Virus record (IMG/VR): IMGVR_UViG_3300010354_012181 | Coordinates: 1-64,000 of that record | Source: a virus | Reading direction: 5' to 3' (one strand) | Length of the DNA: 64,000 nt | Shown: one piece after another, positions 25,233 to 44,586 of the stretch | Layout of the letters: every line of letters starts with the position of its first letter | Numbering within the stretch: the stretch's first letter is position 1 | Program-made: the position numbers and the translations under genes | Notes under the pieces: model-generated | What the model was told of the DNA's origin: nothing | What the model saw: only the letters and a program-made list of their open reading frames with translations | Database searches by the model: none

Positions 25233-26123
25233 ATGTTTAAAAATGATTGGGCTCATTATTCTTACGATGGAATAAAAAACTCTTATAGAATTTCCAATAG
25301 AAGTCTTTTTGATTTTTCTTGCTCGATTAAAAATACTTCTATAAGTCACAAATCTGTACTCAATGATCTGGCTACAGAGATTTATGAAAAAAATAACAGG
25401 TTAGATATATTGTTATCTGGTGGGCTCAATTCTCAAATAATCGTTAAAACTTATAAAGAATTAGGTATTCCTGTTAATGTAAAAATATTTTCCTACGAAA
25501 ACGACATTAATTTACATTGGGATGTGGCTGCAGCTTTAAAATTTTGCCAAGATCAAAAAATCAAATATACTAAAATTGATTTTAACTTAAAAAAATTTTT
25601 TGAATTAGAAGCCGAACATTATTTTAAAAAATCTCTTAATACAGATGTTAGTAAACTGCCTTTGTTAAAAATGATAGAATATTGCGACAATATGCCTGTA
25701 CTGGGAACTGCTTATCCTTTAATTACCAGATCAAATTTTTTCTATGATACACCTGCTACTTGGGATTTAAGGATTTTAGAATCTGAAATTAATATTTTGG
25801 GTTATTCTCAAAAAATTAATAGGCCAGTAATATCTAATTGGTTTTTGTATGATTCTAATTTTTTATCTAGCTTGATCAATCATAGCGCAATGCAGGATTT
25901 AATTAAAGATAAAAATACAGGTTGTACCTCAAATTTTGAAATTCGATCCAAAATTTATGATTTAAAAATAAATCGAGTAAGCCAATCCGGATTAGAGTGG
26001 GAATCGAATAATTGGCTTTTTCCAGATTTTGTTAATGATTTTTATCACAAAGTCATCTCTAGTTCGATTCAATCAAAGATGAAAGTTGTAAAAATTAAAA
26101 ATTTTACAGATCAAGTATCTTGA
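25233..26123 (+). CDS. PP-loop ATPase-like protein (asparagine-synthetase type), variant loop
   Basis: A 296-residue protein with a PP-loop at residues 62-67 reading SGGLNS, where Asp of SGGxDS is Asn. The pattern LDILLSGGLNSQIIV followed by a Rossmann strand is that of asparagine synthetase B/ExsB-type adenylating domains; the glutaminase domain is absent. It resembles the 316-residue protein at 32935 in length and motif spacing. It would activate a carboxylate or similar group as an adenylate, but the Asn may weaken this. First gene of the AT-rich island; converges on the next gene with 20 nt overlap. Confidence 0.7.
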   Translation: MFKNDWAHYSYDGIKNSYRISNRSLFDFSCSIKNTSISHKSVLNDLATEIYEKNNRLDILLSGGLNSQIIVKTYKELGIPVNVKIFSYENDINLHWDVAAALKFCQDQKIKYTKIDFNLKKFFELEAEHYFKKSLNTDVSKLPLLKMIEYCDNMPVLGTAYPLITRSNFFYDTPATWDLRILESEINILGYSQKINRPVISNWFLYDSNFLSSLINHSAMQDLIKDKNTGCTSNFEIRSKIYDLKINRVSQSGLEWESNNWLFPDFVNDFYHKVISSSIQSKMKVVKIKNFTDQVS

Positions 26124-27261
26124 ATCCTTTAGTGTAGGTTTCACTTAATATAGATCCTTTAGGATTAGATAATAGATATCTGTCGTCTATCTGTGAAAAT
26201 ATATTTTTAACAGCAATATTAAAGTTATTTTTTAATAAATCAAATTCATTATTTTCAAACATCCAAAAATAAACATCATCTAGTAAAGGTTTAGGTTTTC
26301 CCGCTTGGAAAATATTATTATTCCAAGTATCCTGATAAAGGATTTTTTTCTGTATTAGTCTCAAAGACTCTTTTTTGTTCTTCAGCGTATCTGATTGAGG
26401 ATTTATACTGTCTAAATTTATACAGTCAAATAATTTATTTTCCTTAATAAATTTCGCTGTTTGATAAGCCTGTTCCATTGGTAATAAAGGAAAGTCAGGA
26501 GTCCAATAAAAAAATTCTGTATTAAAATTGTCAATGCCCGAAGGAAATAAAGTATTTTCTATGAGAATATCTACAAATACAAGGTCTATGCTTTTCAATC
26601 CTAAATTTAAAATTGGTTTATCAGTTCCAAAAATATGACCTTCTTTTTTTCTAGTATTAAGATTCGTATACAAATCTCGATTCAAACGCTGAACAAACGA
26701 AGCGAATGACCCTTTGTACATTTTTAAATTATAGAATTCTTGTTCTAAGGTTTCTACTTTTATTTTTTGTCTATCTATATTTTCAGTATATTCGATAAAT
26801 GAGATTTTTATTTCAGGATGATCAGAATATAGTTTATCTAATTGAGGTTTGATAGCAAAATCCCATTCACTTACTGTATTTTTTGCCGATGAATCTTTGT
26901 TATTCGGAATATATAATTTTCCATCCTTTAACGGTTTAGGCCATTTTACTCTTAACTCATCTAGTTTAATTTTATTATCTATAAATGTTCTTAGAATATT
27001 ATGACTATCTGCTCCGCCTGAGTAATAAAGAATAAGATAGTCATAAGTATCTCTTAACTGTTCCGCCCTTTGTCTGTACAGTTCGTTTAATGAATATTTT
27101 CCTAATAAATTTCTGTCAAATGATTCCCACATATGATCGTGAAAATAAAATCTAAGATATGAATTGGTTTTAGATGCATAAATCATTGCATCTACTTTGT
27201 TATCAAAGGCCAGCCCACCTACTAGCCAACAACCATTTTTTTTATTTAGAATATTCAACAT
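26104..27261 (-). CDS. PP-loop ATPase-like protein, long subtype
   Basis: A 385-residue protein with SGGADS at residues 81-86. An N-terminal 75-residue region (WLVGGLAFDNKVDAMIYASK) and the C-terminal elements EFFYWTPDF and YQDTWNNNIFQ are shared with the 389-residue protein at 30045, so the two are paralogues with PP-loops at the same residue number. Asparagine-synthetase-like fold without the glutaminase domain; substrate unknown. Divergent from the Bug gene at 27292. Confidence 0.72.
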   Translation of the reverse strand: MLNILNKKNGCWLVGGLAFDNKVDAMIYASKTNSYLRFYFHDHMWESFDRNLLGKYSLNELYRQRAEQLRDTYDYLILYYSGGADSHNILRTFIDNKIKLDELRVKWPKPLKDGKLYIPNNKDSSAKNTVSEWDFAIKPQLDKLYSDHPEIKISFIEYTENIDRQKIKVETLEQEFYNLKMYKGSFASFVQRLNRDLYTNLNTRKKEGHIFGTDKPILNLGLKSIDLVFVDILIENTLFPSGIDNFNTEFFYWTPDFPLLPMEQAYQTAKFIKENKLFDCINLDSINPQSDTLKNKKESLRLIQKKILYQDTWNNNIFQAGKPKPLLDDVYFWMFENNEFDLLKNNFNIAVKNIFSQIDDRYLLSNPKGSILSETYTKGFKILDL

Positions 27262-27291
27262 AGATATATACAGAAGTAAGATATTTATTTT

Positions 27292-28191
27292 ATGAAATTA
27301 ATCCTAATTATTATTTTCTTTTTTGTATCTATTAATTTGGCAATAGGTAGTGAAATAGAATTTACTGTCCATCACGGTCCAGGCGGACCTAGTGATAAAT
27401 TAACTAGACTTTTAGTTGCTCAAATGCCAAAAAAATACCTACCTGTTAATCGTCCGGGGGCACAGGGAAGAATTGCTGTTAGACATCTATTGAACAATAA
27501 TGCTATTATGATAGCCACAACTGCACAGATTTTTGTCACTAATTTTATAGATAATGATATGTCTGTTTATAAACAAGATGATTTAGAAATAATATATGTA
27601 GTCGGTATAATGCCTAGTGTTTTGGTGTGCAATAATAAATTAGGATTTAAAACTTATAAGGAATTTATAGCAAATAATCGGTCACTTTCTTTTGGAGTGG
27701 CTGGATACGGAAGTTCGGAACATCTAGCAACTGAAATTTTATTTAAAGAATTTAAAAATAATCATGTAATTATTCCTTACCCGCAAGGAGGCGCACACAG
27801 TTTAAATGATTTACTTAGTGGACACATAGATTGTATGTTTGCAAACTATCCATTAGTTAAAGAACATATTAAGGATGGCACAAAGATTACCACGTTAATG
27901 TCTAGTCATGATCTTAAATTACCAATACCAACGTGGCAACAAATAAACAAAACATCGTTTCCTTATCAAAGTTACCTTGCTATAGTTGCTAATAAAAAAA
28001 TGCTATCAGAATTACAAAAAGATATTATAAATGATCTGAACAATTCATATTCAGATAAATTAAAAGAAGATTTGATACAGGTTGGTATTTTTCCAATTAT
28101 GTCAAAAGACAAAAATTCAATTTTAGAAGTATATCGAGATAACGATAAATTAAAATCTTTTTTACTAAAAAATAATATTAAGATAAATTGA
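27292..28191 (+). CDS. Bug/TctC-family periplasmic binding protein
   Basis: A 299-residue exported protein: signal peptide (about residues 1-19), then VHHGPGGPSDKLTRLL and VNRPGAQGRIAVRHLL, both typical of tripartite tricarboxylate transporter receptors (Bug family), which bind carboxylates, aromatic acids or amino-acid amides in the periplasm. No membrane permease gene is in the window, so it would have to serve a host transporter or act as a ligand sink. Its stop overlaps the TTG start of the next gene. A second Bug protein is at 41493. Confidence 0.82.
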   Translation: MKLILIIIFFFVSINLAIGSEIEFTVHHGPGGPSDKLTRLLVAQMPKKYLPVNRPGAQGRIAVRHLLNNNAIMIATTAQIFVTNFIDNDMSVYKQDDLEIIYVVGIMPSVLVCNNKLGFKTYKEFIANNRSLSFGVAGYGSSEHLATEILFKEFKNNHVIIPYPQGGAHSLNDLLSGHIDCMFANYPLVKEHIKDGTKITTLMSSHDLKLPIPTWQQINKTSFPYQSYLAIVANKKMLSELQKDIINDLNNSYSDKLKEDLIQVGIFPIMSKDKNSILEVYRDNDKLKSFLLKNNIKIN

Positions 28192-29099
28192 TAAAACATC
28201 AAGATTTTTTTCATACTAGATATCCTATCGTATGTGCCTCTATGAATAGAGTTAGCGATGTCAAATTAGCTGTGGCTTGTTATCATGCAGATATACTGCC
28301 AAGTTTTACAGTTTATAATTGGATTCAAAAAGACTTTCAATTTTCTTTTGATTTTGTTCAAGCAGACAAAGATTTAAAAGAGTTTCAAGATAAAACTGGA
28401 TCAAATAATTTAATGCTTTCAATAGGAACTGCCGAAATAGGAATTCCGCAAATGGTCGATTTAATATTAAAGAATAAAATAAAATTCCTTGAAATTTTTG
28501 GTAGAGAGGACGAAGGTTTAAAAAGTATTTCCGCTCACGATTATGAGATCTATGACATTTATAAAAAAAATGATATAAAAATTATTCCAAAACAGTTGTC
28601 AGGAAAACACGCTAATAACATAGGAATGGATGCTATATTATTAAAGGGTAGAGATGGCGCAGGAAGAAGTTTAAGTTATATTGATATTGATACTGAAATT
28701 ATAAACATACTTGGAAAATACCCAACGTTGCCTATAATAATATCTGGTGGTATAGGCAATGCCGGGGACATAAAAAAATATATGAGTATGGGCTGTATGT
28801 CTGTAGCGATAGGAACACTTTTTGCTGCCAGCGAAGAGAGTTGTTTAAGTTTGGAAACTAAAAAGAAAATGGTCGAGGCAAGCAGTACTGATATTTCTAG
28901 ACTCTCCACTGGTGCTCAACAGAATGCTTTAGTTTTTCGCAAAATGGATTGGCAGGATGATTTTAATAATACTAGGTCTTTAATGCAAGGAATAATAAAT
29001 CCAGAGGCAGGCCATGTTTTTGCAGGGAAAGGAATAAACGATGTAAAATCTATTATGCCGGTAAAGGATATAGTTCAACAATTAGTAGAAGGTTTGTGA
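28188..29099 (+). CDS. nitronate monooxygenase-like FMN TIM-barrel protein
   Basis: A 303-residue protein. The N-terminal YPIVCASMNRVSD aligns with the FMN-binding start of the nitronate monooxygenase/2-nitropropane dioxygenase family, so I use the TTG start at 28188 that overlaps the preceding stop (TTGA); the next ATG would remove this motif. IISGGIGNAGDIKKYMSMG and VAIGTLFAAS form the phosphate-binding end of the barrel. These enzymes oxidise nitronates or act as FMN oxidoreductases. Coupled to a Bug receptor, it may act on the imported compound. Confidence 0.75.
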   Translation: MIKHQDFFHTRYPIVCASMNRVSDVKLAVACYHADILPSFTVYNWIQKDFQFSFDFVQADKDLKEFQDKTGSNNLMLSIGTAEIGIPQMVDLILKNKIKFLEIFGREDEGLKSISAHDYEIYDIYKKNDIKIIPKQLSGKHANNIGMDAILLKGRDGAGRSLSYIDIDTEIINILGKYPTLPIIISGGIGNAGDIKKYMSMGCMSVAIGTLFAASEESCLSLETKKKMVEASSTDISRLSTGAQQNALVFRKMDWQDDFNNTRSLMQGIINPEAGHVFAGKGINDVKSIMPVKDIVQQLVEGL

Positions 29100-29998
29100 A
29101 TAGTCTGGTAGAATCTTTTAGTTTCATTAGTAGTTGTAAGTAAAAAATTTAAAAAAGGTTTCAACGGAATCATAAGAGCGTGTTCTTTGATTTTTAATTC
29201 TGTAAGCATAAAAGGTATATTTTCAAATCCAGCCCACTTTGGAAAATATAAAAGTTCATCTTTCCAATATTTTCCGTATATTAAAGGTTTAATATAATAA
29301 TCCCATCTATCTGTGGTGTCTAAGTATACGTGAGGAAATTCCGGACCCTTTGTTAACCCATTACCTTTAAAATATGGCCACGAATAGATACAGGACCACA
29401 GAACCTCTTCACTTAATATACTGGATAAGAATTCGCTAGTGTCACCAAAAAATATAAATTTGCCTTTTCTATTTAATAATTCAAAAGCTCTATGTCTAAC
29501 CATTTCAAAAGAATTGTATCCTTGAAACCAATAAGGTTCATTTTGCGGGGTTATATGTACATATGGATCATGAACCATCTGTACAAAGTCATAATCGTCT
29601 GGTAATAAACTTAAAAACTTTTTTTGTAAAATTGAGTTTATTTGTATGTCGTATAATTCTGCTTCTTCTTCCAACTCGTCTTTGATCTTTAAAACATTAA
29701 TATCTATGATGTGCGCCTTTATGTTATATTTGTCTTCAACTAATTTTAAATTTTTGTATTCGTGATCGTTGAATCCCGGAAGGTACAAAAATGCACATTC
29801 AACAGGTATATCTTGTTGTTGAAAACTCAACAACATACTTTGGCTATCAATACCGCCACTAAGACTTAGCATAATTTTTTTACTAGTTTGTCCAATTTCT
29901 AATGCTCGTTTATCTGACTCTTCCCTCATGTTTCCAGGCGACCATCTACAGGATTGATATTCTATCCACCATTTTCCATTATCGAAACCATAAATCAT
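29075..29998 (-). CDS. PP-loop ATPase-like protein (asparagine-synthetase type)
   Basis: A 307-residue protein with a canonical PP-loop SGGIDS at residues 47-52 (KIMLSLSGGIDSQSM). An asparagine-synthetase-like domain without glutaminase; the middle contains FVQMVHDPYVHITPQ and KFIFFGDTSEFLSS, which could shape the acceptor pocket. It ends convergently on the nitronate-monooxygenase-like gene (25 nt overlap) and starts divergently from 30045 across a shared palindromic promoter-like motif. Confidence 0.72.
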   Translation of the reverse strand: MIYGFDNGKWWIEYQSCRWSPGNMREESDKRALEIGQTSKKIMLSLSGGIDSQSMLLSFQQQDIPVECAFLYLPGFNDHEYKNLKLVEDKYNIKAHIIDINVLKIKDELEEEAELYDIQINSILQKKFLSLLPDDYDFVQMVHDPYVHITPQNEPYWFQGYNSFEMVRHRAFELLNRKGKFIFFGDTSEFLSSILSEEVLWSCIYSWPYFKGNGLTKGPEFPHVYLDTTDRWDYYIKPLIYGKYWKDELLYFPKWAGFENIPFMLTELKIKEHALMIPLKPFLNFLLTTTNETKRFYQTIHKPSTNC

Positions 29999-30044: not shown

Positions 30045-31214
30045 ATGATTAATGTAATTGATGAAAAACTAGGGTACTATCATGCAGGCGGACAAAAATT
30101 TAGTTCAAAAATTGCCGCAGCCTTACATTCTATAAAAACAAATACAAAATTACATTGGAATTTCAATGATGAAATTTTTAGCAAACATGATTGGTCAAAA
30201 GAACCTTTGTCAACATTAGACGAATTGTATGACGCTAGGTCTAGAGAACTACGAGAAAAATACGATTATCTGATTTTAAGTTATAGCGGAGGATCAGATA
30301 GTCATAACATACTAATGAGCTTTATTAGACAAGGACTTCATTTAGATGAAATAATAATAAATCATATGAATAAGGCCAATGACCAATTCACTGATTTGAA
30401 TCCTACTAATAAAAATAGCACAAACGCAGCAGCCGAATTTCATCTTCAAACATTGCCAAGATTAAAAGAAGTTGAAAATTTAATACCTCAAACAAAAATA
30501 ACTATTTTAGATTTAACTGATTATCTTTTTCAATCATTAGAAAAAATAGGTGATGCTAGTTGGGTGCTAGATAAAAAAGAGCAGGTTAACATAGCAGGTA
30601 TGACACGGTTTAATTATATTTTCTTCGATGACATAAGAAAGAATTTTGATAAGGGACGAAAATTAGGTTTAATTACAGGTTTAGAAAAACCCAGATCGTT
30701 TATAGAAAACGGAGAGTATCATTTGCTTTTTACAGATAGACCTGCTAACATCATAACAGTTAAAGAACATATGCATGAATATACAAACTGTTCTGTAGAA
30801 ATGTTCTACTGGAGTCCTAGTCCTATAGCAATACAAATTATGACTAAACAGGCTCATACAATTAAAAAATATTTAGAAATGTTTCCACAAAAACAAGAAC
30901 TGTGGAAAATAGAAAGACTTCATAGTGGTACAATGATTAGGATCATACACGAAAGGATTTTGCGTACATTGTTGTATACTACTTGGGACAATAATTGGTA
31001 CCAGGCCGATAAAGCTATTAAAGACTGGCATAGTGAATTTGACCAATGGTTTTTTGATCATTATACTGATACAAAAACTTTTCATATTTGGAAAGAAGGC
31101 ATAGATTACTTAAAAAATAATCTTTCCTCTTTAATAAAATACGATGACAATACAGCAGATGGATTAGTTCCATTTCATAAAAAATACAAAGTAGGACCTA
31201 TTAAAAGATATTAA
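30045..31214 (+). CDS. PP-loop ATPase-like protein, long subtype
   Basis: A 389-residue protein with SGGSDS at residues 81-86, paralogous to the protein at 26104-27261. Shared features are the YHAGGQKFSSKIAAALHSIK-like N-terminus, the REKYDYLILSYSGG lead-in, the EMFYWSPSP segment and the TWDNNWYQ segment. It probably adenylates a substrate for amide or C-N bond formation. The Rieske gene begins 2 nt after its stop, so the two are likely cotranscribed. Confidence 0.73.
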   Translation: MINVIDEKLGYYHAGGQKFSSKIAAALHSIKTNTKLHWNFNDEIFSKHDWSKEPLSTLDELYDARSRELREKYDYLILSYSGGSDSHNILMSFIRQGLHLDEIIINHMNKANDQFTDLNPTNKNSTNAAAEFHLQTLPRLKEVENLIPQTKITILDLTDYLFQSLEKIGDASWVLDKKEQVNIAGMTRFNYIFFDDIRKNFDKGRKLGLITGLEKPRSFIENGEYHLLFTDRPANIITVKEHMHEYTNCSVEMFYWSPSPIAIQIMTKQAHTIKKYLEMFPQKQELWKIERLHSGTMIRIIHERILRTLLYTTWDNNWYQADKAIKDWHSEFDQWFFDHYTDTKTFHIWKEGIDYLKNNLSSLIKYDDNTADGLVPFHKKYKVGPIKRY

Positions 31215-31216
31215 AA

Positions 31217-32047
31217 ATGAATAATATTAATAGTAAATATCCTAAAGTTTTTACGCACAAAGGTGTATTCAAAAATAATAACTTTTATGGCAGCAGTCAA
31301 TTTGTCATAAACAAAGACCTACAACTGTTTTCTAATAGATGTCCGCATAGGGGTAATAAGATCATATCTCCGGGAACTGTTAAGCAAGAATTTAAGTGCG
31401 GACTTCACGGTTGGCAATGGAACGAAAATGGATCACCTATTAATAATTCTGTAAATTTAAGATCAACTTATGCTACTTTGGGGGGAAGCGGGTTAATATA
31501 TTTAGATTGGAATGAGCCGTCATCGGCGAAATGGGTTCATGATCTTTCTTCCGATGATTTACAATTTGATCACTGCATCAAAAAACATGGGCATGGAGAT
31601 TGGCGATGGCAGATGGAAATGCATGTAGATTTATTACACGTTCAATTTATACATCCATTGTTAAACAATTACGTTGATTGTAATAAATTAATTTCAGAAA
31701 AGGGGTACGACTGGATAGCACAATATCATGATCACGGATGGTGGTTGTTTATCTATCCCTTTACTCATATCGAATGGGAACCTGGATGCTTGTACTTTAG
31801 TGAAATGGTGCCGAGAGAAAATAATCTAGGTTATGACGTTTTTATACATTATCTTTTTTCTCCTAAAATTTCTGAAGAAAAAAAACGAGATTTTTCTATG
31901 ATGGCCGAAATCACCTTCGATGAAGATATTAACGCTGTAAACGAGATTTCAAGCACATCAAAATATAGAATGCCTAGTAATGCGAAACATCCGTTAGAGC
32001 AAGATATAATTCATTTCTATAAATGGTTGGAGGACAATACCGAATGA
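31217..32047 (+). CDS. Rieske-type non-heme iron oxygenase
   Basis: A 276-residue protein with a Rieske [2Fe-2S] site Cys42-x-His44 (RCPHRG) and Cys61-x2-His64 (CGLHGW), and a mononuclear iron site Asp138, His141, His146 (VDLLHVQFIH), with a further acidic residue near 237 (DEDINA). This is the catalytic plan of ring-hydroxylating and related oxygenases, though shorter than usual (alpha subunits are often 400 or more). A reductase is not in the window and would come from the host. It sits between PP-loop and GNAT-like genes. Confidence 0.85.
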   Translation: MNNINSKYPKVFTHKGVFKNNNFYGSSQFVINKDLQLFSNRCPHRGNKIISPGTVKQEFKCGLHGWQWNENGSPINNSVNLRSTYATLGGSGLIYLDWNEPSSAKWVHDLSSDDLQFDHCIKKHGHGDWRWQMEMHVDLLHVQFIHPLLNNYVDCNKLISEKGYDWIAQYHDHGWWLFIYPFTHIEWEPGCLYFSEMVPRENNLGYDVFIHYLFSPKISEEKKRDFSMMAEITFDEDINAVNEISSTSKYRMPSNAKHPLEQDIIHFYKWLEDNTE

Positions 32048-32514
32048 GAATAGAAATTGTTGGAAATGAAAGAGATAGAGCAGATAATGAATTAATTATA
32101 AAACACAGTGATCTTCTTTCCTATACACCGGCCTATAGTTTTTTTCTTAAGGAAATGGCTAATTTAATCGATTCCGGCAATCATATTGGATATACTTATT
32201 GGGATGATAAAAATTGCGGAATTATTTGGGCAGAAAACGTTGATAATAAAGTTGTAGGAATTTTAGTATATGATCGATCATTTACTAAAAGTAGAATACC
32301 TTGTCTTTATATAGTTCTTACTGCGGTTGATATTAATTATAGACAGTTAGGTATACATATAATTATGAACAAATATTTTGAGAGACAGGTACAGAAACTA
32401 AATTGCCAAGGAATAAAATCTGAAATAAGTTTAAAAAATAAAATACGATTACTTACAGCAGAGAGAGATCAATTAGTTCCATATGCATTTGTTGTTTCTA
32501 AAAAAATATCATGA
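32044..32514 (+). CDS. GNAT-like acetyltransferase
   Basis: A 156-residue protein, ATGA-coupled to the Rieske gene at 32044. Segments IIWAENVDNKVVGILVYDRS and LYIVLTAVDINYRQLGIHII resemble GNAT strands 2-4 and the acetyl-CoA-binding helix start, though the R/Q-x-x-G-x-G/A loop is weak (RQLGIH). Function could be N-acylation of a pathway intermediate. Its stop overlaps the next gene. Confidence 0.55.
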   Translation: MRIEIVGNERDRADNELIIKHSDLLSYTPAYSFFLKEMANLIDSGNHIGYTYWDDKNCGIIWAENVDNKVVGILVYDRSFTKSRIPCLYIVLTAVDINYRQLGIHIIMNKYFERQVQKLNCQGIKSEISLKNKIRLLTAERDQLVPYAFVVSKKIS

Positions 32515-32948
32515 CAATTAAAGAAAATATAAAATTAGTTGAAAGCGATATCTATTCGATCTTGAAAAATAAAGTAAAAGAGCGTATAGAATACCTAATA
32601 AATTTAGGATACAGCGAAAATCTTGCTAGATTTTTTACTGATATAGATGAGGATAATACTGCCGTAATTTGGAATGATGATAAAAATTCTATTACTGCTA
32701 TACTTTGTTATACGATTAATGATATAGATAAAGGCGGGGTATTAATTAATTTTAGTTACGCCAAAGATGCTGTTAGTTTAGAACAAGTTTATAATTATTT
32801 TGAAAAAAAAGTAAAGGCATTAAGATGCGTTTATATAAACGAACACGTTCCTATTAAAGATCATAGACGGCTTACTGAATTGGAAAATTTAAGTTTCGAA
32901 AAAAAATATTATCTATTGTTCAAAAGAGTGCAAAATGTTACGCTATAA
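32511..32948 (+). CDS. GNAT-like protein, possibly inactive
   Basis: A 145-residue protein coupled (ATGA) to the previous GNAT-like gene and similar in plan: helix, AVIWNDDKNSITAILCY, then GVLINFSYAKDAV. The acetyl-CoA loop cannot be seen. It may be a degenerate duplicate or a partner subunit. The next PP-loop gene starts inside its end. Confidence 0.5.
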   Translation: MTIKENIKLVESDIYSILKNKVKERIEYLINLGYSENLARFFTDIDEDNTAVIWNDDKNSITAILCYTINDIDKGGVLINFSYAKDAVSLEQVYNYFEKKVKALRCVYINEHVPIKDHRRLTELENLSFEKKYYLLFKRVQNVTL

Positions 32949-36563: not shown

Positions 36564-37110
36564 AAATTTCTATAGCATCTTTAAATAAAATACGGCGATT
36601 GTTCTTTGTAATTATTAACGACAAACACCACCTACCAGTTGAATCAAAGTTTACAATTTTATGAGGACGACCTGCATTAATAATTACAGGTTGGTTAATT
36701 TTGACTGCTGTTACATTAAGTACTTCATTGTCATCTAAACTTATATATTGTGTATTGACTGCGGTTTTTGAAGTTACAAAAATCTTGTTTGTATCCTTTG
36801 TTTCCCCATAACACATGATATGATTTTCTGATCCCCAAACATAATTTATCTTTACAAAATCTTCAGGGGGATTCATATCAATATGCCAAGGTAGTCTTCC
36901 AAAAGGCGGAGTGTAGAATAATTCAGAGTTTATTAAAGTACAATCTAGCGATGAAAAAAATGAAAATATCTTATCATTAAAAATGTAATTAAGTTGATTC
37001 CAATGATTATTTTTATTTTGATCTATACTTTTAGATAGATCAAATGATATCTGATCTTTATCAAAAAAAATTTCAGGTAGAGTTAAAAATCTATAATAAG
37101 GTGATAGCAT
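36541..37110 (-). CDS. 2-oxoglutarate/Fe(II) oxygenase-like protein
   Basis: A 189-residue protein with H-x-D in RLPWHIDMNPPEDFVKINY and a distal His/Arg element AGRPHKIVNFDSTGRWCLSL. Both fit a cupin-fold 2-oxoglutarate oxygenase. Last gene of a five-gene minus-strand run (39596 to 36541) of such proteins with overlapping or touching ends. Confidence 0.7.
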   Translation of the reverse strand: MLSPYYRFLTLPEIFFDKDQISFDLSKSIDQNKNNHWNQLNYIFNDKIFSFFSSLDCTLINSELFYTPPFGRLPWHIDMNPPEDFVKINYVWGSENHIMCYGETKDTNKIFVTSKTAVNTQYISLDDNEVLNVTAVKINQPVIINAGRPHKIVNFDSTGRWCLSLIITKNNRRILFKDAIEIFSEYVVN

Positions 37111-37636
37111 AGTCTTTGTATTTTTCGTAACTACGTTTTATCAATTCTTTATGCTTTTGTGGATTTACAAACCCCCTAACATATATAGTTTCTCTGTTTT
37201 TATCTTCTTTTACACGGTGATATCCTACCGTTGAATTTAAAAGATAGCAACATGGAATGTTAGGTACCGCGGCATCTATCCATTCGTTCCCGTTAAACAC
37301 TTCTAAACTATCATTATTACCTTTCAGTATAAATCTGTAACCGCAAGGTTCGTTTTCTTTGATGTGATCTAGTTCGCCTTGTTCAAAGGTCATCGAAGGA
37401 TAGACATCAACATGACTTTCTACTTTTCTTTGTTGTATTTTATGTGTTAAAGTAGTAATCTTTTCAAAAGGTAATTGTTTTAATATTTCTTCAAATCTAG
37501 TATTTGTCAGACTCTGTTGATCTATAGGTGTCGAAGACCAATACGGATTGTATTCTTTTAATTCTATGGATCTATCTTCTTGATGGAATTCTAGTAAAGA
37601 TAAATCTATATCAATGGGAAGAAATAAAAAATTCAT
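37091..37636 (-). CDS. 2-oxoglutarate/Fe(II) oxygenase-like protein
   Basis: A 181-residue protein (start chosen at 37636; a frame extension of 18 codons would run into the upstream gene). H-x-D appears in KVESHVDVYPSMTF and the distal site in VGYHRVKEDKNRETIYVRGF, with Arg placed to bind 2-oxoglutarate. It overlaps the next gene by 20 nt. Confidence 0.68.
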   Translation of the reverse strand: MNFLFLPIDIDLSLLEFHQEDRSIELKEYNPYWSSTPIDQQSLTNTRFEEILKQLPFEKITTLTHKIQQRKVESHVDVYPSMTFEQGELDHIKENEPCGYRFILKGNNDSLEVFNGNEWIDAAVPNIPCCYLLNSTVGYHRVKEDKNRETIYVRGFVNPQKHKELIKRSYEKYKDYAITLL

Positions 37637-37637
37637 T

Positions 37638-38378
37638 TTATATAATTTTATTTGTTTCCGAAATAAAACAATTTGTTCGATACTTCTCAATGCTACGATC
37701 GATCAATATTTGATATTTGTCTATATCAAGTTCGTATCGATCTAGGATGATTATTATTTTTCTAAACCCCGGAATGAATTCACTGCCGTGTTTCGTTCGA
37801 AGATTATTCCATACATAAGAATTAGTGTCTTGTAATCTCGGTATAGGAAATTTTTTAGAAAGATTGTCTGGTGTATCAGGTAAAGACTGTATAAGACTTA
37901 ATGTTTGTTTAGGATTTTCGTCATACAACATTATTCTAAATGCTCCAGGAAAATCAACAAATTTAGTATGATCCCTATGAAAGGGTATAGAAGTTGTGCT
38001 GCTCCACATTCTAATCCTTGAGATTTCATGAAAAGGTAAATGGCTAATCAAACTATCATAAACATATTGAAAATCTGTCATGAATTCTTGTTTCACATTT
38101 AATGTCCATATATCTTGTTGAGCCATTTCATTTGTAGGCATGACGTCAACAGCATTGAAAGATGTCATCCCATACAGATTATTTGCCACATCTGGTTGTA
38201 TTTTATAAGTTGGTTTGGAATTTTTAAAAAACCAATCCACCAAATCCGGAAATTCAAATTTTGGTATATCTAAAGGAATTAAACAATAGTTGCCATACTT
38301 TTCTAATTCTGTTAATCTAGGATAGGCTGACAAATTTTCTAATCGTCTACTGGTAAAAAATTCTTTTTCTTTTAACAT
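37638..38378 (-). CDS. 2-oxoglutarate/Fe(II) oxygenase-like protein
   Basis: A 246-residue protein. Iron site H-x-D in SIPFHRDHTKFVDFPGAFR and distal part TKHGSEFIPGFRKIIIIL. The N-terminal 120 residues are specific to this member (LTELEKYGNYCLIPLDIPKF). It overlaps the 3' end of the gene before it by 7 nt. Confidence 0.7.
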   Translation of the reverse strand: MLKEKEFFTSRRLENLSAYPRLTELEKYGNYCLIPLDIPKFEFPDLVDWFFKNSKPTYKIQPDVANNLYGMTSFNAVDVMPTNEMAQQDIWTLNVKQEFMTDFQYVYDSLISHLPFHEISRIRMWSSTTSIPFHRDHTKFVDFPGAFRIMLYDENPKQTLSLIQSLPDTPDNLSKKFPIPRLQDTNSYVWNNLRTKHGSEFIPGFRKIIIILDRYELDIDKYQILIDRSIEKYRTNCFISETNKII

Positions 38379-39100
38379 TTTTTTGTGAATATGCTTATAC
38401 CTAATTTAGAATTAATTCCTAATTTTCTAAAATCGCTCGCACAATGGAGTCTTACGCTATCAAATATAATAGCGTTTCCTGGTATCCAACTTACTATAGA
38501 ATTCAAGCTTAATCCGGTTAACCAAGAAGGTTTCATATGACTAAAATAATCTTTTACGAGTTGATCGTCAATTTTATCTAGTGATAAATTTTCAACTTCT
38601 GTATAATCATATAATTGTTTGTTATAATATGTCGGAATATTTTTATCTCCATAAAAAAATTTAGAGGGCCCATGGAAATAGCATTGATCAAAAAAACATA
38701 GTTTCGGAAACTTTTTTATTTCTTGAGGATAAATCTTTAGAGGTAGAGTTATACCCTTATAAACATTAGACGGTAATTCATGTGTATCATCATTATGGAT
38801 TATATGGGGATAATTCGTTTTAAAAAAGAAAGCGGCTGTTATTTCAAAATTTCCTATGTGGTCTTTTAATTTTTTTAGAATCTTTGATATTATAATATCT
38901 TCAGAATAATATTTGAGATCAAGTGTGATGGGTCCGGTATTTTTGTAGATCTTTCCTTGGTAAAAATTATTTGTATTATCTGCTTGATCAAAGATTTTTT
39001 CTAAATAATCTATCTCTTCTGTATTTAGAAAATTATCAACTGAAAAGGGAGAAGAAAATGTTTCTTTTATGGATTGAATTTGTTCTAATGTTCTTTTCAT
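38372..39100 (-). CDS. 2-oxoglutarate/Fe(II) oxygenase-like protein
   Basis: A 242-residue protein with H-x-D in PHIIHNDDTHELPSNVYKGI and a distal His in IIFDSVRLHCASDFRK, a spacing (about 100 residues) seen in phage-type 2-oxoglutarate oxygenases with a WxPGNAIIFDS strand. Second gene of the minus-strand run; one base separates it from the gene upstream. Confidence 0.7.
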   Translation of the reverse strand: MKRTLEQIQSIKETFSSPFSVDNFLNTEEIDYLEKIFDQADNTNNFYQGKIYKNTGPITLDLKYYSEDIIISKILKKLKDHIGNFEITAAFFFKTNYPHIIHNDDTHELPSNVYKGITLPLKIYPQEIKKFPKLCFFDQCYFHGPSKFFYGDKNIPTYYNKQLYDYTEVENLSLDKIDDQLVKDYFSHMKPSWLTGLSLNSIVSWIPGNAIIFDSVRLHCASDFRKLGINSKLGISIFTKKC

Positions 39101-39101: not shown

Positions 39102-39596
39102 TTAATCTACTGACATAACTAGATGAATCCTGGTAAGATTAATATGGCCGTTTATAAATGTATGAGACTTAGTAGTATCTGTAATATAAGATTTTCCGGT
39201 TTGTAACTGGTGACATTCATTTTCATAGGGCCATATCATCCAACATTGTTCATTGGTTATTATCGGAATATGCACACGTTTGAAAATATCTCTATGGATA
39301 GAATATGATTTTCTAGGTTCCATAATCATGATTCTTGCCCTAAATCCGTTATGTTCAAGAATAACTTTTTCTATTTCTGAATTTTTTAGAGAATCGGGAA
39401 TATACCGATAAGATTTTTCTAATTTATTTTCGAGATTGGCCAAAGAACCTATGCTTTCTTGCCAGTTTTCATTACGTTCTGTACTCATTTGGCAACTAAT
39501 CTGGCTAGTCCCTGGCTGTAATTTATTCAATAATTTGTTAACTTCCGCACATAATTCGCCGAAATTTGGTATTTGTTTTAATGGTTCTACTAACAT
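39102..39596 (-). CDS. Asp/Asn hydroxylase-like 2-oxoglutarate oxygenase
   Basis: A 164-residue protein: iron site RKSYSIHRDIFKRVHIPI, then WPYENECHQLQTGKSYITD and distal KSHTFINGHINLTRIHLVMS. Compact version of the aspartyl/asparaginyl beta-hydroxylase fold, here complete. It heads the minus-strand run of five. Confidence 0.72.
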   Translation of the reverse strand: MLVEPLKQIPNFGELCAEVNKLLNKLQPGTSQISCQMSTERNENWQESIGSLANLENKLEKSYRYIPDSLKNSEIEKVILEHNGFRARIMIMEPRKSYSIHRDIFKRVHIPIITNEQCWMIWPYENECHQLQTGKSYITDTTKSHTFINGHINLTRIHLVMSVD

Positions 39597-39672: not shown

Positions 39673-39999
39673 ATGCCCTGGATAGTACAAAGTGTATATA
39701 AAAGGCCAAATAAAGATGTAATTTGGCACACCCAGGCTTTTGATAAAAATTCAGTAAGCCTAAGTTTCGCATCTTGGTCAATGAAGGTGTGTTTATTTGG
39801 CCGTAGAAGGACTGAAAACGAAATCGACGAACTTACATTACAAATACAGACTGTTTGGCAAACGAAAGAAGAATACGATGAATTTATGTCTATTCCTTCA
39901 GTAAAAGAGCATTTTAATAACGTGGCTTTATATAACGCTAATATGGGCATTAAGACTGAACCAAAGTTAGAGTTTTATAATGATCCAATAAATCCTTAA
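39673..39999 (+). CDS. hypothetical protein
   Basis: A 108-residue protein (PWIVQSVYKRPNKDVIWHTQ start). The alternation of strands and a central helix (ENEIDELTLQIQTVWQTKEE) could fit a small ferredoxin-like (ABM-type) fold, but there is no diagnostic residue. Isolated between the oxygenase run and the beta-barrel gene; a two-way terminator follows. Confidence 0.6.
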   Translation: MPWIVQSVYKRPNKDVIWHTQAFDKNSVSLSFASWSMKVCLFGRRRTENEIDELTLQIQTVWQTKEEYDEFMSIPSVKEHFNNVALYNANMGIKTEPKLEFYNDPINP

Positions 40000-40029
40000 A
40001 AAAAGGACTCATAAAGAGTCCTTTTTTTG
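40000..40029. terminator. bidirectional intrinsic terminator
   Basis: Hairpin AAAAGGACTC/GAGTCCTTTT with A-run on one side and T-run on the other, placed between convergent genes ending at 39999 and 40045. Confidence 0.85.
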
Positions 40030-40044
40030 ACAAGTTATAGATTA

Positions 40045-40602
40045 TTAATGAAATCTTCTAGTGAAACTTAAACCATATATTCTTTGCTCAATAGTTCCAT
40101 CAACTATGTAATAAGCAAGACCTATTTGATTTTTCTTATCTAAATTATAATTTAAGCCTGCTCTCCATGTTCTGGTTTGATCGTTTTTACCTTCCTGAAA
40201 AGAAGATCTAAATCTCCAACCAAGGGTAGAAACAAATCCACTGTTTCCTAAAGGCAAAGCAAAACTAGGATTAATTGAATAATAGGCATAGTTTCCAGTC
40301 GTGGCATTACCTGAATATCTTTCTCCTATGGCTGCACGAACAGAAAAACCAGAATCAAATGTACGCATAACTCCTGCCTCTAATCTATTAGAAACTGCCT
40401 GCGTACTATCTACTTTGAGTCCAGTGACTGCTATATCGCCAAACCAATTTTTTGTAATGCTATCGCGCACAGTAACCACTACTGCTTTCATGTCTGATAC
40501 TCCATTTTTGCTGTCTAGGTCTTGAAGTTCAACATTAATAGACTGTGCCTGTGCAGCTGCAGAAAAAATAGCAATCACAATCGCTGCGGTAAATTTAAAC
40601 AT
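40045..40602 (-). CDS. outer-membrane beta-barrel protein
   Basis: A 185-residue protein with a signal peptide (MFKFTAAIVIAIFSAAAQA) and alternating strands typical of an 8- to 10-stranded outer-membrane barrel (WRAGLNYNLDKKNQIGLAYY). The end GLSFTRRFH has the aromatic pattern recognised by the BAM complex, with a terminal His after Phe. A phage gene of this kind could alter receptors or block superinfection; this is inference. A GGAG site lies upstream (minus strand). Confidence 0.75.
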   Translation of the reverse strand: MFKFTAAIVIAIFSAAAQAQSINVELQDLDSKNGVSDMKAVVVTVRDSITKNWFGDIAVTGLKVDSTQAVSNRLEAGVMRTFDSGFSVRAAIGERYSGNATTGNYAYYSINPSFALPLGNSGFVSTLGWRFRSSFQEGKNDQTRTWRAGLNYNLDKKNQIGLAYYIVDGTIEQRIYGLSFTRRFH

Positions 40603-40645: not shown

Positions 40646-41503
40646 TTACTTACGATTAATTATGAAATCCTCATCGTTTATGATTTCTTTATTATATTCA
40701 TAATTTTGAGGAATCCAATCTTGATTTAAAATATCTGAATCTGCAGAATATTCTATCATAAAATTAGATGGAGTATTGAAGTACCAATATGTGGCTGATG
40801 AAATATTATGCCTCCCAGGACCTTTAGCAGTTCTCCAGCCAGACCTCTGCATGTGTTGTCCGCCTGCAAATAGTTCATATATATCTCCCACGGAAAATGC
40901 TATATGATGTAGACCTTTATCTTCCGACTGTATTAGAAAAAGTCTATGATGATAATCCAATGCAGCGGCACGTAAAAATATTCCTCTGTTTAATAACCTG
41001 TCGCTGACAACAAAGCCCAGGTCAGTATAAAATTTTTCTGCTGTTTCTATATCATCTGAGAATAAAACAACATGAGCGATCTCATATGGATATGCTCTTT
41101 CATATTTTTTCACAGGAGAATTAATTCTAACATTGTTACCTAATGAATTAGTGGCTGTTCCCCGATTTTCCGAGATTGTTTTAGAAAACTGCTCTAAAAT
41201 AATCGTATAATCATGACAATCCTTTAGAGATATTTTATTCTCTATTGGTCTAAAATCTTTATAGTTTATTCTGTTTGAAATTAAAACTGCACAGACAAGA
41301 TCTATATCATCTACGTACCAAGTAATAGAATTAAATTCATCTTTGCAATCACTATTTAAGGTAATAGAAGATCCATCTAAAGTTTTAAAAATATAATTGT
41401 CTATAGTCTGTAATCCGAAATCCGATAAGAAGGACACAGTTTTGTCAACATCATTAACTGATATCGATATATCTTTTATTCCCTTGATATTATTATTCAA
41501 CAT
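40646..41503 (-). CDS. extradiol dioxygenase-like VOC-family protein
   Basis: A 285-residue two-domain vicinal-oxygen-chelate protein of catechol 2,3-dioxygenase type. The second domain keeps the metal triad: His144 (EIAHVVLF), His200 (GLHHIAFSVG) and Glu251 (NFMIEYSAD), as well as FYTDLGF. Such enzymes cleave catechol-type rings using Fe(II). Its neighbours upstream encode a Bug receptor, an FAD monooxygenase and a 2-oxoglutarate oxygenase, all in one tight minus-strand operon. Confidence 0.82.
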   Translation of the reverse strand: MLNNNIKGIKDISISVNDVDKTVSFLSDFGLQTIDNYIFKTLDGSSITLNSDCKDEFNSITWYVDDIDLVCAVLISNRINYKDFRPIENKISLKDCHDYTIILEQFSKTISENRGTATNSLGNNVRINSPVKKYERAYPYEIAHVVLFSDDIETAEKFYTDLGFVVSDRLLNRGIFLRAAALDYHHRLFLIQSEDKGLHHIAFSVGDIYELFAGGQHMQRSGWRTAKGPGRHNISSATYWYFNTPSNFMIEYSADSDILNQDWIPQNYEYNKEIINDEDFIINRK

Positions 41504-42470
41504 TTACAATGATTTTAAATTTTTTAATATTATTATCAAACTTATTATACAAATTTCTAAATGCTGTTTCCATGTCTTTAGGAGAACCTCCAGCAGTTGA
41601 ATAGGCAAGTCCGCTAAATTTTGTCCTAACTTCTTGATCTTTTAATATTTCATTTATATGATAATTCAATGAATTAACAATATTGCTATTCATACCAGCA
41701 GGACCCATTAGAGCGAACCATCCTGAAAAATCTGCAGGAGTTAATCCTGTCTCGGAAAGTGTGGGAATTTCCGGTGCAAATTGACTTCTTTTGTCTGAAG
41801 CAACAGCTATTACATTGACCTTTTTACTTTCTATCGCAGAGATAACCGGAAATAATCCAGTTATCATCATTGAAACTTCATTAGATAATAGAGCAGTAAC
41901 CGCAGGAAAATTTCCTCTATAGGGTACCTGAACAATATCTAAACCTAATTCTTTCTTATAGTATTCTCCAACCATGTTCATCGGACTGCCACTACCGGGC
42001 GTAGCGTATGATCTTATTCTTCCTTGTTTTATCGCATCAATTAACTCTTTATTTGTTCTAACATTTGTTGAACTGTTTACTACTATAAAAAGATTTGTTT
42101 CTCTGATGACTTTTACTATTGGCGTGAAATCTTTGAAAATATCATATGAAATTCTATCACCTAGAACAAATTTAGAAGTTATAATCGTGCTAGGTGTTAA
42201 CAACAGAGTGTATCCGTCAGGTTTAGATTCTGCTACGAATCTATTACCTATAGTTCCGCTGGCTCCTGATTTATTAAGGACTAACACATTTTGATTTATT
42301 CTTTTAGATAATTTTTCTGCTAATACTCTTGCGATCACATCTGTATCTCCTCCCGTAGGAAACGAAACTACAATAGTTATGGGTCTATCAAATGTAACAT
42401 TAGCAAATACAGCAGGAGATATTAACAATAATAAAACAAATGCTGCTAATCTATTTCTAAAAATTTTCAT
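41493..42470 (-). CDS. Bug/TctC-family periplasmic binding protein
   Basis: A 325-residue exported receptor: signal peptide to about residue 23 (AVFANVTF), then the family motifs PITIVVSFPTGGDTDVIAR, NKSGASGTIGNRFVA, ATPGSGSPMNM and GWFALMGPAG. It is full length and closer to the Bug consensus than the 27292 copy. The family binds carboxylates and aromatic acids. It overlaps the dioxygenase gene by 11 nt and touches the monooxygenase gene. Confidence 0.88.
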   Translation of the reverse strand: MKIFRNRLAAFVLLLLISPAVFANVTFDRPITIVVSFPTGGDTDVIARVLAEKLSKRINQNVLVLNKSGASGTIGNRFVAESKPDGYTLLLTPSTIITSKFVLGDRISYDIFKDFTPIVKVIRETNLFIVVNSSTNVRTNKELIDAIKQGRIRSYATPGSGSPMNMVGEYYKKELGLDIVQVPYRGNFPAVTALLSNEVSMMITGLFPVISAIESKKVNVIAVASDKRSQFAPEIPTLSETGLTPADFSGWFALMGPAGMNSNIVNSLNYHINEILKDQEVRTKFSGLAYSTAGGSPKDMETAFRNLYNKFDNNIKKFKIIVNVE

Positions 42471-42471: not shown

Positions 42472-43620
42472 TCAATTCTTTCCTAATAAATCGTTCGGTA
42501 AAATAAAATTTTTTTCATTCAAATAAAAATCATCTACTTTGCTTTGACTAATTTTTAAGTCAAAATTATCTTTAGATTTAAACCCTAAACCAATTTGGCG
42601 ACACTGGGTTTGAACATATCTTGCTATATCATAACGGTAGTCAACATACATTTTCAGCACATTGTCGAGATTGCTATCTAAATTCAAAAGTTGTGTTAAT
42701 GTAGCAGCGTCCTGCAAAGCCTGAGCACCCCCCTGTGCCATGAAAGGCAACGATGCATGAGCCGAGTCACCTATAAACACTATGTTTCCTTTGTTCCATG
42801 GTTTAGGAAGATTAACTTCTTCCACACAGGTAAAATTTACATGAGTCAAAGAATCTATTTCATCTATTATTTCTTTAACCAGTCCATTACAATGAGATGA
42901 AAATTTTTCTTTCATTGCCGCAGGCTGCTGTTCTATTGGTATTTTATACTTAGATTCTTCCGGCATCGCTGCCCAAGTATACATGTATTCATTATCTAAA
43001 GGCACAAAACCTAATCTGAAACCATCACCTATTACAATTATTTTTTCATTTATTTCAGGACGCCTTAAATGTAAACTATGCCAGAGTCCGAAGTTAGTAA
43101 AAACTGACTGCTGATTTTTAAAAAGATGCTGTCTAATAGAAGAGTTGGTACCGTCTGCTGCTATTATCAAATCATAGTTATCCGAAATTCCATTATTCAA
43201 ACTTACTTTAGAATTTAAATATCCGTTCAAAGTTTCATTTAATATAAAACAATTAAAATGAAATTTAACTTTATAGCGGCTTGCTGTTTTATATAATATT
43301 TTTAAAAACTCATATCGATTAATCCCGACATAAGAAGGATATTTCTTTTCTATAGAAGGAAAATAAACTTTTCCTAATAATTTAGAATCATAACTCCAAA
43401 ATTCTGTATCTCCAGATAAAGTACAGCCTTTCAACAATATTTTGTCTAAGACTCCGATATAATCTAAACATTTAAGAGCATTACTGTATAATACTATACC
43501 AGCACCCCTAGTAAAAATATTAGATTTTTTTTCTACAACCGTAACATTATGTCCTTGCTGTGATAAGGCAGCGGCAACATAACAACCTGCGATACCTGCT
43601 CCTTGAATTAAAATTTTCAT
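42472..43620 (-). CDS. FAD-dependent aromatic-type monooxygenase (salicylate-hydroxylase-like)
   Basis: A 382-residue flavoprotein of the group A hydroxylase type: N-terminal GAGIAG dinucleotide motif (7-12) followed by VVEKK, a DG motif (IIAADGTNSSIR), and the flavin motif GDSAHASLPFMAQGG near residue 285. These enzymes hydroxylate aromatic acids using NAD(P)H and O2. It lies one base from its neighbours on both sides in a minus-strand operon with an extradiol-dioxygenase-like gene and a Bug receptor. Confidence 0.87.
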   Translation of the reverse strand: MKILIQGAGIAGCYVAAALSQQGHNVTVVEKKSNIFTRGAGIVLYSNALKCLDYIGVLDKILLKGCTLSGDTEFWSYDSKLLGKVYFPSIEKKYPSYVGINRYEFLKILYKTASRYKVKFHFNCFILNETLNGYLNSKVSLNNGISDNYDLIIAADGTNSSIRQHLFKNQQSVFTNFGLWHSLHLRRPEINEKIIVIGDGFRLGFVPLDNEYMYTWAAMPEESKYKIPIEQQPAAMKEKFSSHCNGLVKEIIDEIDSLTHVNFTCVEEVNLPKPWNKGNIVFIGDSAHASLPFMAQGGAQALQDAATLTQLLNLDSNLDNVLKMYVDYRYDIARYVQTQCRQIGLGFKSKDNFDLKISQSKVDDFYLNEKNFILPNDLLGKN

Positions 43621-43621
43621 T

Positions 43622-44401
43622 TTAAATTTTATGTAAAGAATCGTAAGTAGATTCTATGAGAATTTTATCTGTTTCATCAGTTCTTACACCAGTAATTACG
43701 AAAATTATTCTAGGAGATCTGCTCATGTTCACAGTGCTATGCGGAACATTAAGAGTATCGAATATATGTACGTCGCCCGCTCTCCAATTGGTGTATACAT
43801 AATTTCCGTAAACCATCACTTGACCTGGTTCATAATCCTGTAATGTTACAACCATTCTAGTGACTTTATGGGGTGCTGCTGGATATCTATGCCATAATTT
43901 GTCTATATGCATAGGAAAAGTCTGACCAGGAAATTGTGTATGAATTCTAGTTCTACAACGTTTCAACTGCCAATAGTCAGCCATTTTTTTCAAAACAGGA
44001 TGATCTGCTATGAGAGGTTCTGGAACAACCTGGGTAAATTCTATGCCACCAAATTCTTTTCTATCATAATGTTCTTGTTCTAAGAGAGGACTCTTTCCTC
44101 CAGGGAATCCGGGATGAGCTTGTTTGTCTGTTAATTCATTCCAGCCTATTTTTTTTGATTCCTCAATCAAAAAAGGATAAAGATCCAGCAAAGATTTTTT
44201 ATCTTCATCGTTCCAATCATATCTACCTAATCTAGAAAAATATTCCCCTTCTTGATCTTGTTTCCATTTATCAAAATGATAATTAGAAAATTTATCCTTG
44301 ATATATTCAAAATTACTCTTATAACCAGTAGAGTCTTGGTATTGAAAATCTAAAGGTAAAGAATGGAATTTAGCTCTGTTTTCAAAAATTTTTGGATTCA
44401 T
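43622..44401 (-). CDS. 2-oxoglutarate/Fe(II) oxygenase-like protein
   Basis: A 259-residue protein with iron site FPMHIDKLWHRYP and distal VPHSTVNMSRSPRIIFVITG, where Arg binds 2-oxoglutarate; the GYVYTNWRAGDVHIFDT-like strand between them fits the fold. It belongs to the Asp/Asn hydroxylase-like group. Second gene of the aromatic-type operon. Its start overlaps the end of the small gene before it. Confidence 0.75.
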   Translation of the reverse strand: MNPKIFENRAKFHSLPLDFQYQDSTGYKSNFEYIKDKFSNYHFDKWKQDQEGEYFSRLGRYDWNDEDKKSLLDLYPFLIEESKKIGWNELTDKQAHPGFPGGKSPLLEQEHYDRKEFGGIEFTQVVPEPLIADHPVLKKMADYWQLKRCRTRIHTQFPGQTFPMHIDKLWHRYPAAPHKVTRMVVTLQDYEPGQVMVYGNYVYTNWRAGDVHIFDTLNVPHSTVNMSRSPRIIFVITGVRTDETDKILIESTYDSLHKI

Positions 44402-44586
44402 AAATTCTCTTTAGTTTGATATGAAATGACTATTAACCAATCTATAAGATCAGTTTCATCTTCGTCCGGCACGCCCTTAATTCCGTCATAAGAAATAAGA
44501 ACTTTACACCTAGGTCGAGCGGCATCATCCGGTGCTACTGGACCAGTTTTCCAAATTCTTGGTTTCATTTTTACTGTTTCTGACAT
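44398..44586 (-). CDS. small protein heading the minus-strand oxidation operon
   Basis: A 62-residue protein (KMKPRIWKTGPVAPDDAARP..., then LISYDGIKGVPDEDETDLID). No family recognised. It overlaps the oxygenase gene start by 4 nt, so it is coupled. It could be a small regulator or subunit; nothing in the sequence tells. Confidence 0.55.
   Translation of the reverse strand: MSETVKMKPRIWKTGPVAPDDAARPRCKVLISYDGIKGVPDEDETDLIDWLIVISYQTKENL

Follow-up and report, generated by a model that had tools for sequence, protein, structure and literature searches.

Gene content and composition of the block

The DNA analysed here, which we call the window, covers positions 1 to 64,000 of the IMG/VR virus record IMGVR_UViG_3300010354_012181, a linear fragment of 72,449 bases, and within it we examined a block of about 20 kb at positions 25233-44586 that holds about 25 enzyme and uptake genes (Table 1). 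These include six PP-loop proteins (PP1 to PP6), seven oxygenase-like proteins (OX1 to OX7), several redox enzymes, GNAT-like proteins and periplasmic carboxylate receptors of the TctC type. All open reading frames (ORFs) that an earlier note on this DNA had claimed for the block were found where it placed them; absent from that note were TctC1, TctC2, the extradiol dioxygenase-type gene VOC, an outer-membrane-like protein and the small protein S1.

The strong difference in base composition from both flanks described in the earlier note is clear in the guanine-plus-cytosine (GC) content, which is 31.2% in the block and 39.6% and 40.1% in the left and right flanks, and in the GC content of third codon positions per gene (0.23 vs 0.34, Mann-Whitney p ~1e-8). 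The short operons with touching ends that it reported are likewise evident: coding density is 0.98, neighbouring gene ends are spaced from −53 to +46 bp apart except at one 448-bp gap, with overlaps of 20-25 bases where genes converge. The gap (39597-40044) contains no convincing gene, and short ORFs occur on either of its strands.

Genes for tail-fibre and baseplate-connector proteins occupy the right part of the window. In GenBank, the best matches to one conserved flank protein come from large myoviruses, PA5oct and phiM12 among them, and T4-type Gp23 capsid genes occur in six large related records. Together these features assign the record to the tailed phages, probably to the large myoviruses.

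PP-loop proteins

The exact SGGxDS motif is present in PP2 to PP6, and PP1 has SGGLNS, the sole N variant among 50 members of the PP1/PP5 family; the six SGGxDS-type proteins counted earlier are confirmed as five exact matches and one variant. In Foldseek comparisons, the AlphaFold model of PP4 (mean predicted local distance difference test, pLDDT, 95; alignment of 77 sequences) best matched AsnB, carbapenam synthetase, GMP synthetase and beta-lactam synthetase in the PDB, the PP3 model (mean pLDDT 92; 36 sequences) matched MnmA, AsnB and beta-lactam synthetase, and NAD synthetase was also among the matches to these models. A PP5 profile matched NAD synthetase, QueC and MnmA. PP6 matched the QueC and PP-loop families of Pfam (2.9e-8 and 2.8e-6) and scored well under the QueC equivalog cut-off; in PHROGs, PP3 and PP6 had QueC-like matches only. 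The models confirm the predicted PP-loop (HUP-type) fold for PP4 and PP3, as the profile does for PP5, and wherever folds could be tested (PP3, PP4, PP5 and, by Pfam, PP6) they agreed with those originally named. Chance motif matches as the source of the ligase calls are ruled out by these folds and by conservation. The proteins lack an N-terminal nucleophile (Ntn) glutaminase domain, the motif lying 26-81 residues from the N-terminus with no Pfam glutaminase match.

Oxygenase-like proteins and other enzymes

All seven oxygenase candidates contain an HxD...H triad, and when 82 oxygenase-like proteins were aligned (mean column identity 8%) its H, D and H were the only invariant columns. Because these 82 proteins came from homology clusters picked partly for an oxygenase-like look, this invariance is support rather than proof. 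The triad bears out the earlier count of seven oxygenase-like proteins, of which OX6 alone passes its Pfam cut-off; OX1 to OX5 and OX7 are probable 2-oxoglutarate (2OG)-Fe(II)-type oxygenases, as judged by motif and alignment. OX7 is paired with S1 in the window and in the related records G043, L002 and L003, and S1 may be its substrate or partner; a scan seeded with OX7 returned two loci only. Further HxD...H-type look-alikes were noticed by eye outside the block, at 15268-15846, 18121-18603 and 20835-21476.

The Rieske, FA_desaturase, FAD_binding_3, NMO/FabK and TctC assignments all pass Pfam cut-offs, in agreement with the redox genes named earlier, and the GNAT-like assignment made alongside them has, for GNAT1, a PF00583 match at E 0.15 only. 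NMO scores 57 bits against PF03060 (cut-off 28) and 50 bits against the FabK equivalog TIGR03151 (cut-off 453). We considered glycan amidation of the WbpG/HisF type and rejected it: the match of NMO to WbuZ spans only a generic TIM-barrel stretch, and that to FabK is full length. A complete tripartite tricarboxylate transporter (TctC, TctB and TctA) was not found in the window, which has two TctC genes only. FMO and VOC have no relatives in the loci collected as described below, and the block they form may be unrelated to the rest.

A fixed slot with variable contents

The right flank (thyX and the following genes) is kept at 43-84% among the window, G043, L002 and L003, and the left flank (a phosphoesterase gene, then the Mtd_N fibre) is kept in G043. 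Between Mtd_N fibre and thyX, G043 holds 14 gene families of the window at 26-67% identity (PP1/5, PP2, PP3, PP4, PP6, NMO, U1, DES, OX1, OX2, OX5, OX6, OX7 and S1), together with TctC, TctA, a TctB-like ORF, a porin, DUF2061 and radical SAM genes. The nearest PDB entry to this porin is Omp32, a likeness that, as to the host, points to Burkholderiales. L002 and L003 have part of the gene set to the left of the Mtd_N fibre, other relatives have differing mixtures before thyX, and L155 and L159 have none of these ligases or oxygenases from phosphoesterase to thyX. The slot thus keeps its place while its gene content varies. Block genes occur together in other phages, and once, in G043, in the matching genomic slot; the scattering of single homologues that would have counted against the earlier note was not what was found. 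Bacterial contamination as the origin of the nearest relatives was rejected, since the window, G043, L002 and L003 have phage tail-region flanks in common and six other records carry Gp23.

Carrier proteins with a DSL motif lie directly upstream of a PP1/PP5-family gene, with a 4-bp overlap, in L003 and L076, and a third is found among desaturases in the related record G018. Relatives also encode an AMP-binding enzyme, P450, methyltransferases, SGNH-like proteins, enolase-type enzymes and radical SAM proteins, some with SPASM domains. No condensation or ketosynthase domain and no non-ribosomal peptide synthetase (NRPS) or polyketide synthase (PKS) module was seen among the Pfam-scanned proteins, a set in which no search was aimed at condensation/ketosynthase modules. 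TctA is present in 5 of 30 records, including G043 with its TctB-like ORF of 66 aa. The phage contig L100 carries a full-length TctA (PF01970 1.2e-134), a TctB-like ORF and TctC (13523-15210, 6346-7272); to judge from these matches, this phage may encode an entire tripartite tricarboxylate transporter.

Portable modules

Among 72 dereplicated loci seeded with PP4 or PP3, we found PP3 in 38, TctC in 33, PP1/PP5 in 29, desaturases in 26, NMO in 24, PP2 in 22, a DUF2061 membrane protein in 21 and the GNAT1 family in 17. Because of this seeding, linkage was tested by gene positions across whole records (18 dereplicated large records), with a distance of at most 2.5 kb from a PP4/PP2 gene. PP3 lay within this distance in 10 of 12 cases (0.9 expected) and NMO in 8 of 9 (0.7 expected), although the profiles of both were built partly from PP4 neighbours and could therefore favour linked copies; TctC, detected with an independent Pfam model, did so in 10 of 14 (0.9 expected; p <= 2e-4 in each of the three cases). 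Desaturases were not significantly nearer to PP4/PP2 than chance in these records (3/23, p 0.23). In 14 loci found by an OX1-seeded search, PP6 and OX5 were each present in 11 (9/10 and 8/10, respectively, after dereplication), OX2- and OX3/4-type genes were often alongside, and the combination also recurred where PP3 or PP4 was missing.

The linkage test and the OX1-seeded loci point to at least two portable units. Judged from these gene neighbourhoods, unit A exists as PP4, PP3, NMO and TctC, often with PP2, DUF2061 and Rieske genes, and unit B as PP6, OX1, OX2 and OX5, often with OX3/4 and OX6. A third unit seems to combine PP1/PP5, desaturase and U1/GN26-type genes. The block as a whole looks like at least three portable modules, to which are added a window-specific FAD/extradiol block and transporter-type proteins.

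Distribution of the families

A PP2/PP4 profile scan of viral contigs gave 508 confirmed matches, the best 80 of which were retained, and across 84,980 prokaryote genomes it gave five; these counts are lower bounds and no census, because the scans rely on short conserved patterns. One of the five prokaryote matches is on a 3.2-kb contig and four are in Bacteriovoracaceae-type genomes. In three of the latter type (L104-L107, with PP2-like genes) a glycosyltransferase-like gene lies nearby. Single-protein searches with PP3, PP4, PP5 and PP6 gave no match in 50,697 GenBank phages; in the same phages NMO matched only unannotated Listeria records, at 20-22%, and, over short stretches, Staphylococcus phages, and OX7 and TctC2 had one weak record apiece. 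On these matches, the PP-loop families of the block are virus-centred. Where the ratio of nonsynonymous to synonymous substitution rates (dN/dS) was computable, synonymous sites being saturated in many genes, it was 0.02-0.18 for PP4, PP2, TctC and DUF2061 and about 0.4 for NMO (two pairs), which shows purifying selection where measurable.

Other features of the window

Twenty-four tRNA genes covering all 20 amino acids are interspersed with ORFs at 13079-20894. A PTPS/QueD-like gene (PF01242 1.9e-15) lies at 51909-52412 and was found in 10 of 13 records searched, and a Fe/Mn superoxide dismutase-like gene (PF02777 1.4e-22) lies within the tail region at 54534-55184. Among the tail-fibre genes of the related locus L108, a protein at 6499-9108 has subtilase-like motifs by eye.

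Table 1. Genes of the block and selected neighbours, with window positions and the basis of each assignment.
Feature	Description	Position	Strand	Evidence
DES0	Fatty acid desaturase-like; outside block, left of Mtd_N fibre	22613..23500	+	PF00487 1.4e-23; unmatched in G043
Mtd_N fibre	Mtd_N-type tail fibre; left edge of slot	23599..25185	+	PF18454 4e-9; equivalent position in G043
PP1	PP-loop protein, SGGLNS	25233..26123	+	PP5 paralogue, 1.5e-27; motif
PP2	PP-loop protein, PP2/PP4 family	26104..27261	-	PP4 paralogue, 25-28% identity
TctC1	Periplasmic carboxylate receptor; signal-peptide-like N-terminus	27292..28191	+	PF03401 1.4e-17
NMO	FabK/nitronate monooxygenase-like TIM barrel; 4-bp overlap with TctC1	28188..29099	+	PF03060 2.8e-15; family profile best PDB FabK 3e-19
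PP3	PP-loop protein	29075..29998	-	AlphaFold; Foldseek MnmA/AsnB
PP4	AsnB-like PP-loop protein	30045..31214	+	AlphaFold; Foldseek AsnB/carbapenam/beta-lactam synthetase
Rieske	Rieske-type oxygenase alpha-subunit-like	31217..32047	+	PF00355 6.8e-9, PF00848 1.8e-4
GNAT1	GNAT-like	32023..32514	+	PF00583 (see text)
GNAT2	Remote GNAT1 paralogue	32511..32948	+	phmmer 2e-5
PP5	PP-loop protein, PP1/PP5 family	32935..33885	+	Profile vs PDB: NAD synthetase 4e-8, QueC 8e-5
U1	GNAT-like family (fold by resemblance only); adjoins desaturase or PP1/PP5 in relatives	33887..34438	+	Relatives 1e-81 to 2e-56
DES	Fatty acid desaturase-like membrane protein	34435..35232	+	PF00487 6.6e-17
PP6	QueC-like PP-loop protein, four conserved Cys	35222..35854	+	PF06508 2.9e-8; alignment
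OX1	HxD...H oxygenase-like; adjoins PP6 in relatives	35868..36563	+	Motif, relatives
OX2	HxD...H oxygenase-like	36541..37110	-	Motif, alignment
OX3	HxD...H oxygenase-like; in-frame ATG gives alternative start 37636	37091..37690	-	Motif, alignment
OX4	HxD...H oxygenase-like, OX3 family	37638..38378	-	Motif, alignment
OX5	HxD...H oxygenase-like; linked with OX1 and PP6 in relatives	38372..39100	-	Motif, relatives
OX6	Aspartyl/asparaginyl beta-hydroxylase-like oxygenase	39102..39596	-	PF05118 1.5e-9
Outer-membrane-like	Outer-membrane-barrel-like protein; signal-peptide-like N-terminus	40045..40602	-	PF13609 E 0.025; relatives in L002, L003
VOC	Extradiol dioxygenase-type	40646..41503	-	PF00903 2.9e-13; PDB homoprotocatechuate 2,3-dioxygenase 1e-9
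TctC2	Periplasmic carboxylate receptor	41493..42470	-	PF03401 6.4e-45
FMO	FAD aromatic monooxygenase-like	42472..43620	-	PF01494 3.1e-23; PDB tropone, salicylate, 6-hydroxynicotinate monooxygenases
OX7	HxD...H oxygenase-like, S1 partner	43622..44401	-	PF05118 0.0094; motif, alignment
S1	Conserved 62-aa protein adjoining OX7	44398..44586	-	56-70% identical in L002, L003, L100
ThyX	ThyX-type thymidylate synthase; right boundary gene	46058..46729	+	phrog_85 9.6e-76; 79-84% in relatives

Interpretation and alternatives

On balance, we lean towards reading the block as a modular biosynthetic island dedicated to the phage and sited at a tail-adjacent hotspot, with a small molecule as its presumed product. 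A metabolic island dedicated to the phage, most likely a biosynthetic one, is supported by folds that agree with those named wherever they could be tested and by the joint occurrence of the genes in other phages; to that extent the pathway proposed in the earlier note is partly borne out. Several results weigh against our reading. Gene content varies so strongly among relatives that one fixed pathway is not demonstrated, desaturases are not significantly linked to PP4/PP2, and the origin of the PP3 and NMO profiles could have inflated their linkage. In the window's own record no carrier protein was found and no adenylation domain seen, the motif of PP1 is altered and six of the seven oxygenases fall below Pfam cut-offs.

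Typical features of natural-product assembly are amide formation powered by ATP, intermediates bound to carriers and several rounds of oxidation, and by analogy we infer that the enzymes of the window act in this manner. TctC receptors, with TctA and TctB in some relatives, would import a carboxylate, which the PP-loop enzymes would convert with ATP into an acyl adenylate and then join to an amine. The FabK/NMO-like flavoenzyme, desaturase, Rieske and 2OG-type oxygenases might reduce, desaturate and hydroxylate the scaffold, GNAT-like enzymes might acylate it, and in some relatives it would probably be bound meanwhile to a carrier protein of its own that is coupled to a PP1/PP5-type ligase. 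In the course of infection such a pathway would yield a small molecule or lipid that is oxidised and contains an amide, for which candidate roles are altered host envelope or metabolism, action on competitors and signalling.

A rather unlikely alternative, if the strongest competitor, is that auxiliary metabolic genes, independent of one another and each of use alone, have collected as a patchwork at an insertion hotspot and share no product. They would serve the uptake of carboxylates, aromatic or other (TctC, outer-membrane protein), the oxidation and cleavage of rings (FMO, VOC, Rieske) and the desaturation of lipids. The variable slot content and loosely linked desaturases would fit such a patchwork, as would the resemblance of FMO and VOC, which lack relatives in the collected loci, to aromatic monooxygenases and extradiol dioxygenases, and single oxygenase or transporter genes have already been reported in phages (PMC4164917). 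However, PP4-PP3-NMO-TctC and PP6-OX1-OX2-OX5 are kept together across divergent phages far above chance, carrier proteins are translationally coupled to PP1/PP5 genes, and enzymes of the amide-ligase type are not catabolic. It is possible that some genes, above all FMO, VOC, the outer-membrane-like protein and TctC2, are independent auxiliary genes.

Modification of tail-fibre or other proteins by the oxygenases, GNATs, radical SAM and PP-loop enzymes, with S1 maybe a peptide substrate of OX7, seems improbable: it would account for the position of the slot between tail-fibre genes, the membership of OX6 in an Asp/Asn hydroxylase family, the conserved S1-OX7 pair and the SPASM radical SAM proteins of relatives, but leaves TctC/TctA, the desaturases, the FabK-like enzyme and the carrier proteins unexplained. 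Least probable, and very unlikely, is hypermodification of nucleobases, which the earlier note had listed, in phage DNA or tRNA (7-deazaguanine or thiolation); here PP6 would act as QueC and the remaining PP-loop proteins as modifiers. The QueC-like motifs and four Cys of PP6, the MnmA-like fold of PP3, the PTPS/QueD-like gene and the 24 tRNAs are consistent with it. Nevertheless, TGT/DpdA was found in none of 13 records (that of the window, a fragment, and 12 relatives), PP6 is far under the QueC cut-off, the PTPS-like gene lies outside the block and also occurs in records where PP6 was not seen, membrane and periplasmic proteins do not fit, and phage Motura exemplifies a fuller gene set. Nothing connects the block genes to a surface glycan, another of the pathway types suggested earlier.

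Relation to known systems

Returning to the biosynthetic island that we favour, its ligases share with AsnB, beta-lactam synthetase and carbapenam synthetase the fold, the SGGxDS PP-loop and, by analogy, the acyl-adenylate amide chemistry; unlike these enzymes, they lack the N-terminal glutaminase, show 9-18% identity in structural alignments and form separate, mostly viral families. The 7-deazaguanine cluster of Achromobacter phage Motura similarly has QueC-like and AsnB-like genes in one neighbourhood, whereas here no TGT was found, QueE and FolE were not seen with the block, and oxygenases, a desaturase and transporter receptors are present instead. Auxiliary metabolic genes of SUP05 viruses include a 2OG-Fe(II) oxygenase and a tctA domain (PMC4164917), and aquatic phages carry a fatty acid desaturase with tetrapyrrole genes (PMC11480375); unlike such single genes, the block consists of large linked modules with AsnB-like ligases. 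The bacterial Pbo cluster (carrier protein, ligase, radical SAM, 2OG oxygenase; PMC8473136) resembles it in the adjacency of ligase, oxygenase, carrier and tailoring enzymes, but the block is phage-borne, shows no NRPS/PKS modules and has PP-loop rather than ATP-grasp or A-domain ligases.

Two BFVD entries from uncultured Caudovirales (A0A6J5TD96 and A0A6J7WGK7), listed without function, have the PP4 fold over its full length (TM 0.81-0.88, 25-26% identity). A literature search of open-licence papers gave no report of the linked gene set or of these ligase families, and because most block ligases and oxygenases have no above-threshold Pfam or PHROGs match they are overlooked by current surveys. 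The superfamilies are already known; there is a real chance that the island is a kind of its own.

Implications

More tentatively, and with somewhat less than even confidence, we suggest that uncultured tailed phages own natural-product pathways evolved in viruses, with AsnB-like ligase families rare in cells, exchangeable modules in a fixed slot and molecules unknown from bacteria. If so, phages would run multi-step biosynthesis of their own with largely virus-confined enzyme families, beyond the borrowing of single host genes, and would constitute a reservoir of uncharacterised ligases and oxygenases. Phage-encoded carboxylate uptake would be connected with biosynthesis in a testable manner, and infected aquatic bacteria would have a chemical route by which they differ from uninfected ones.

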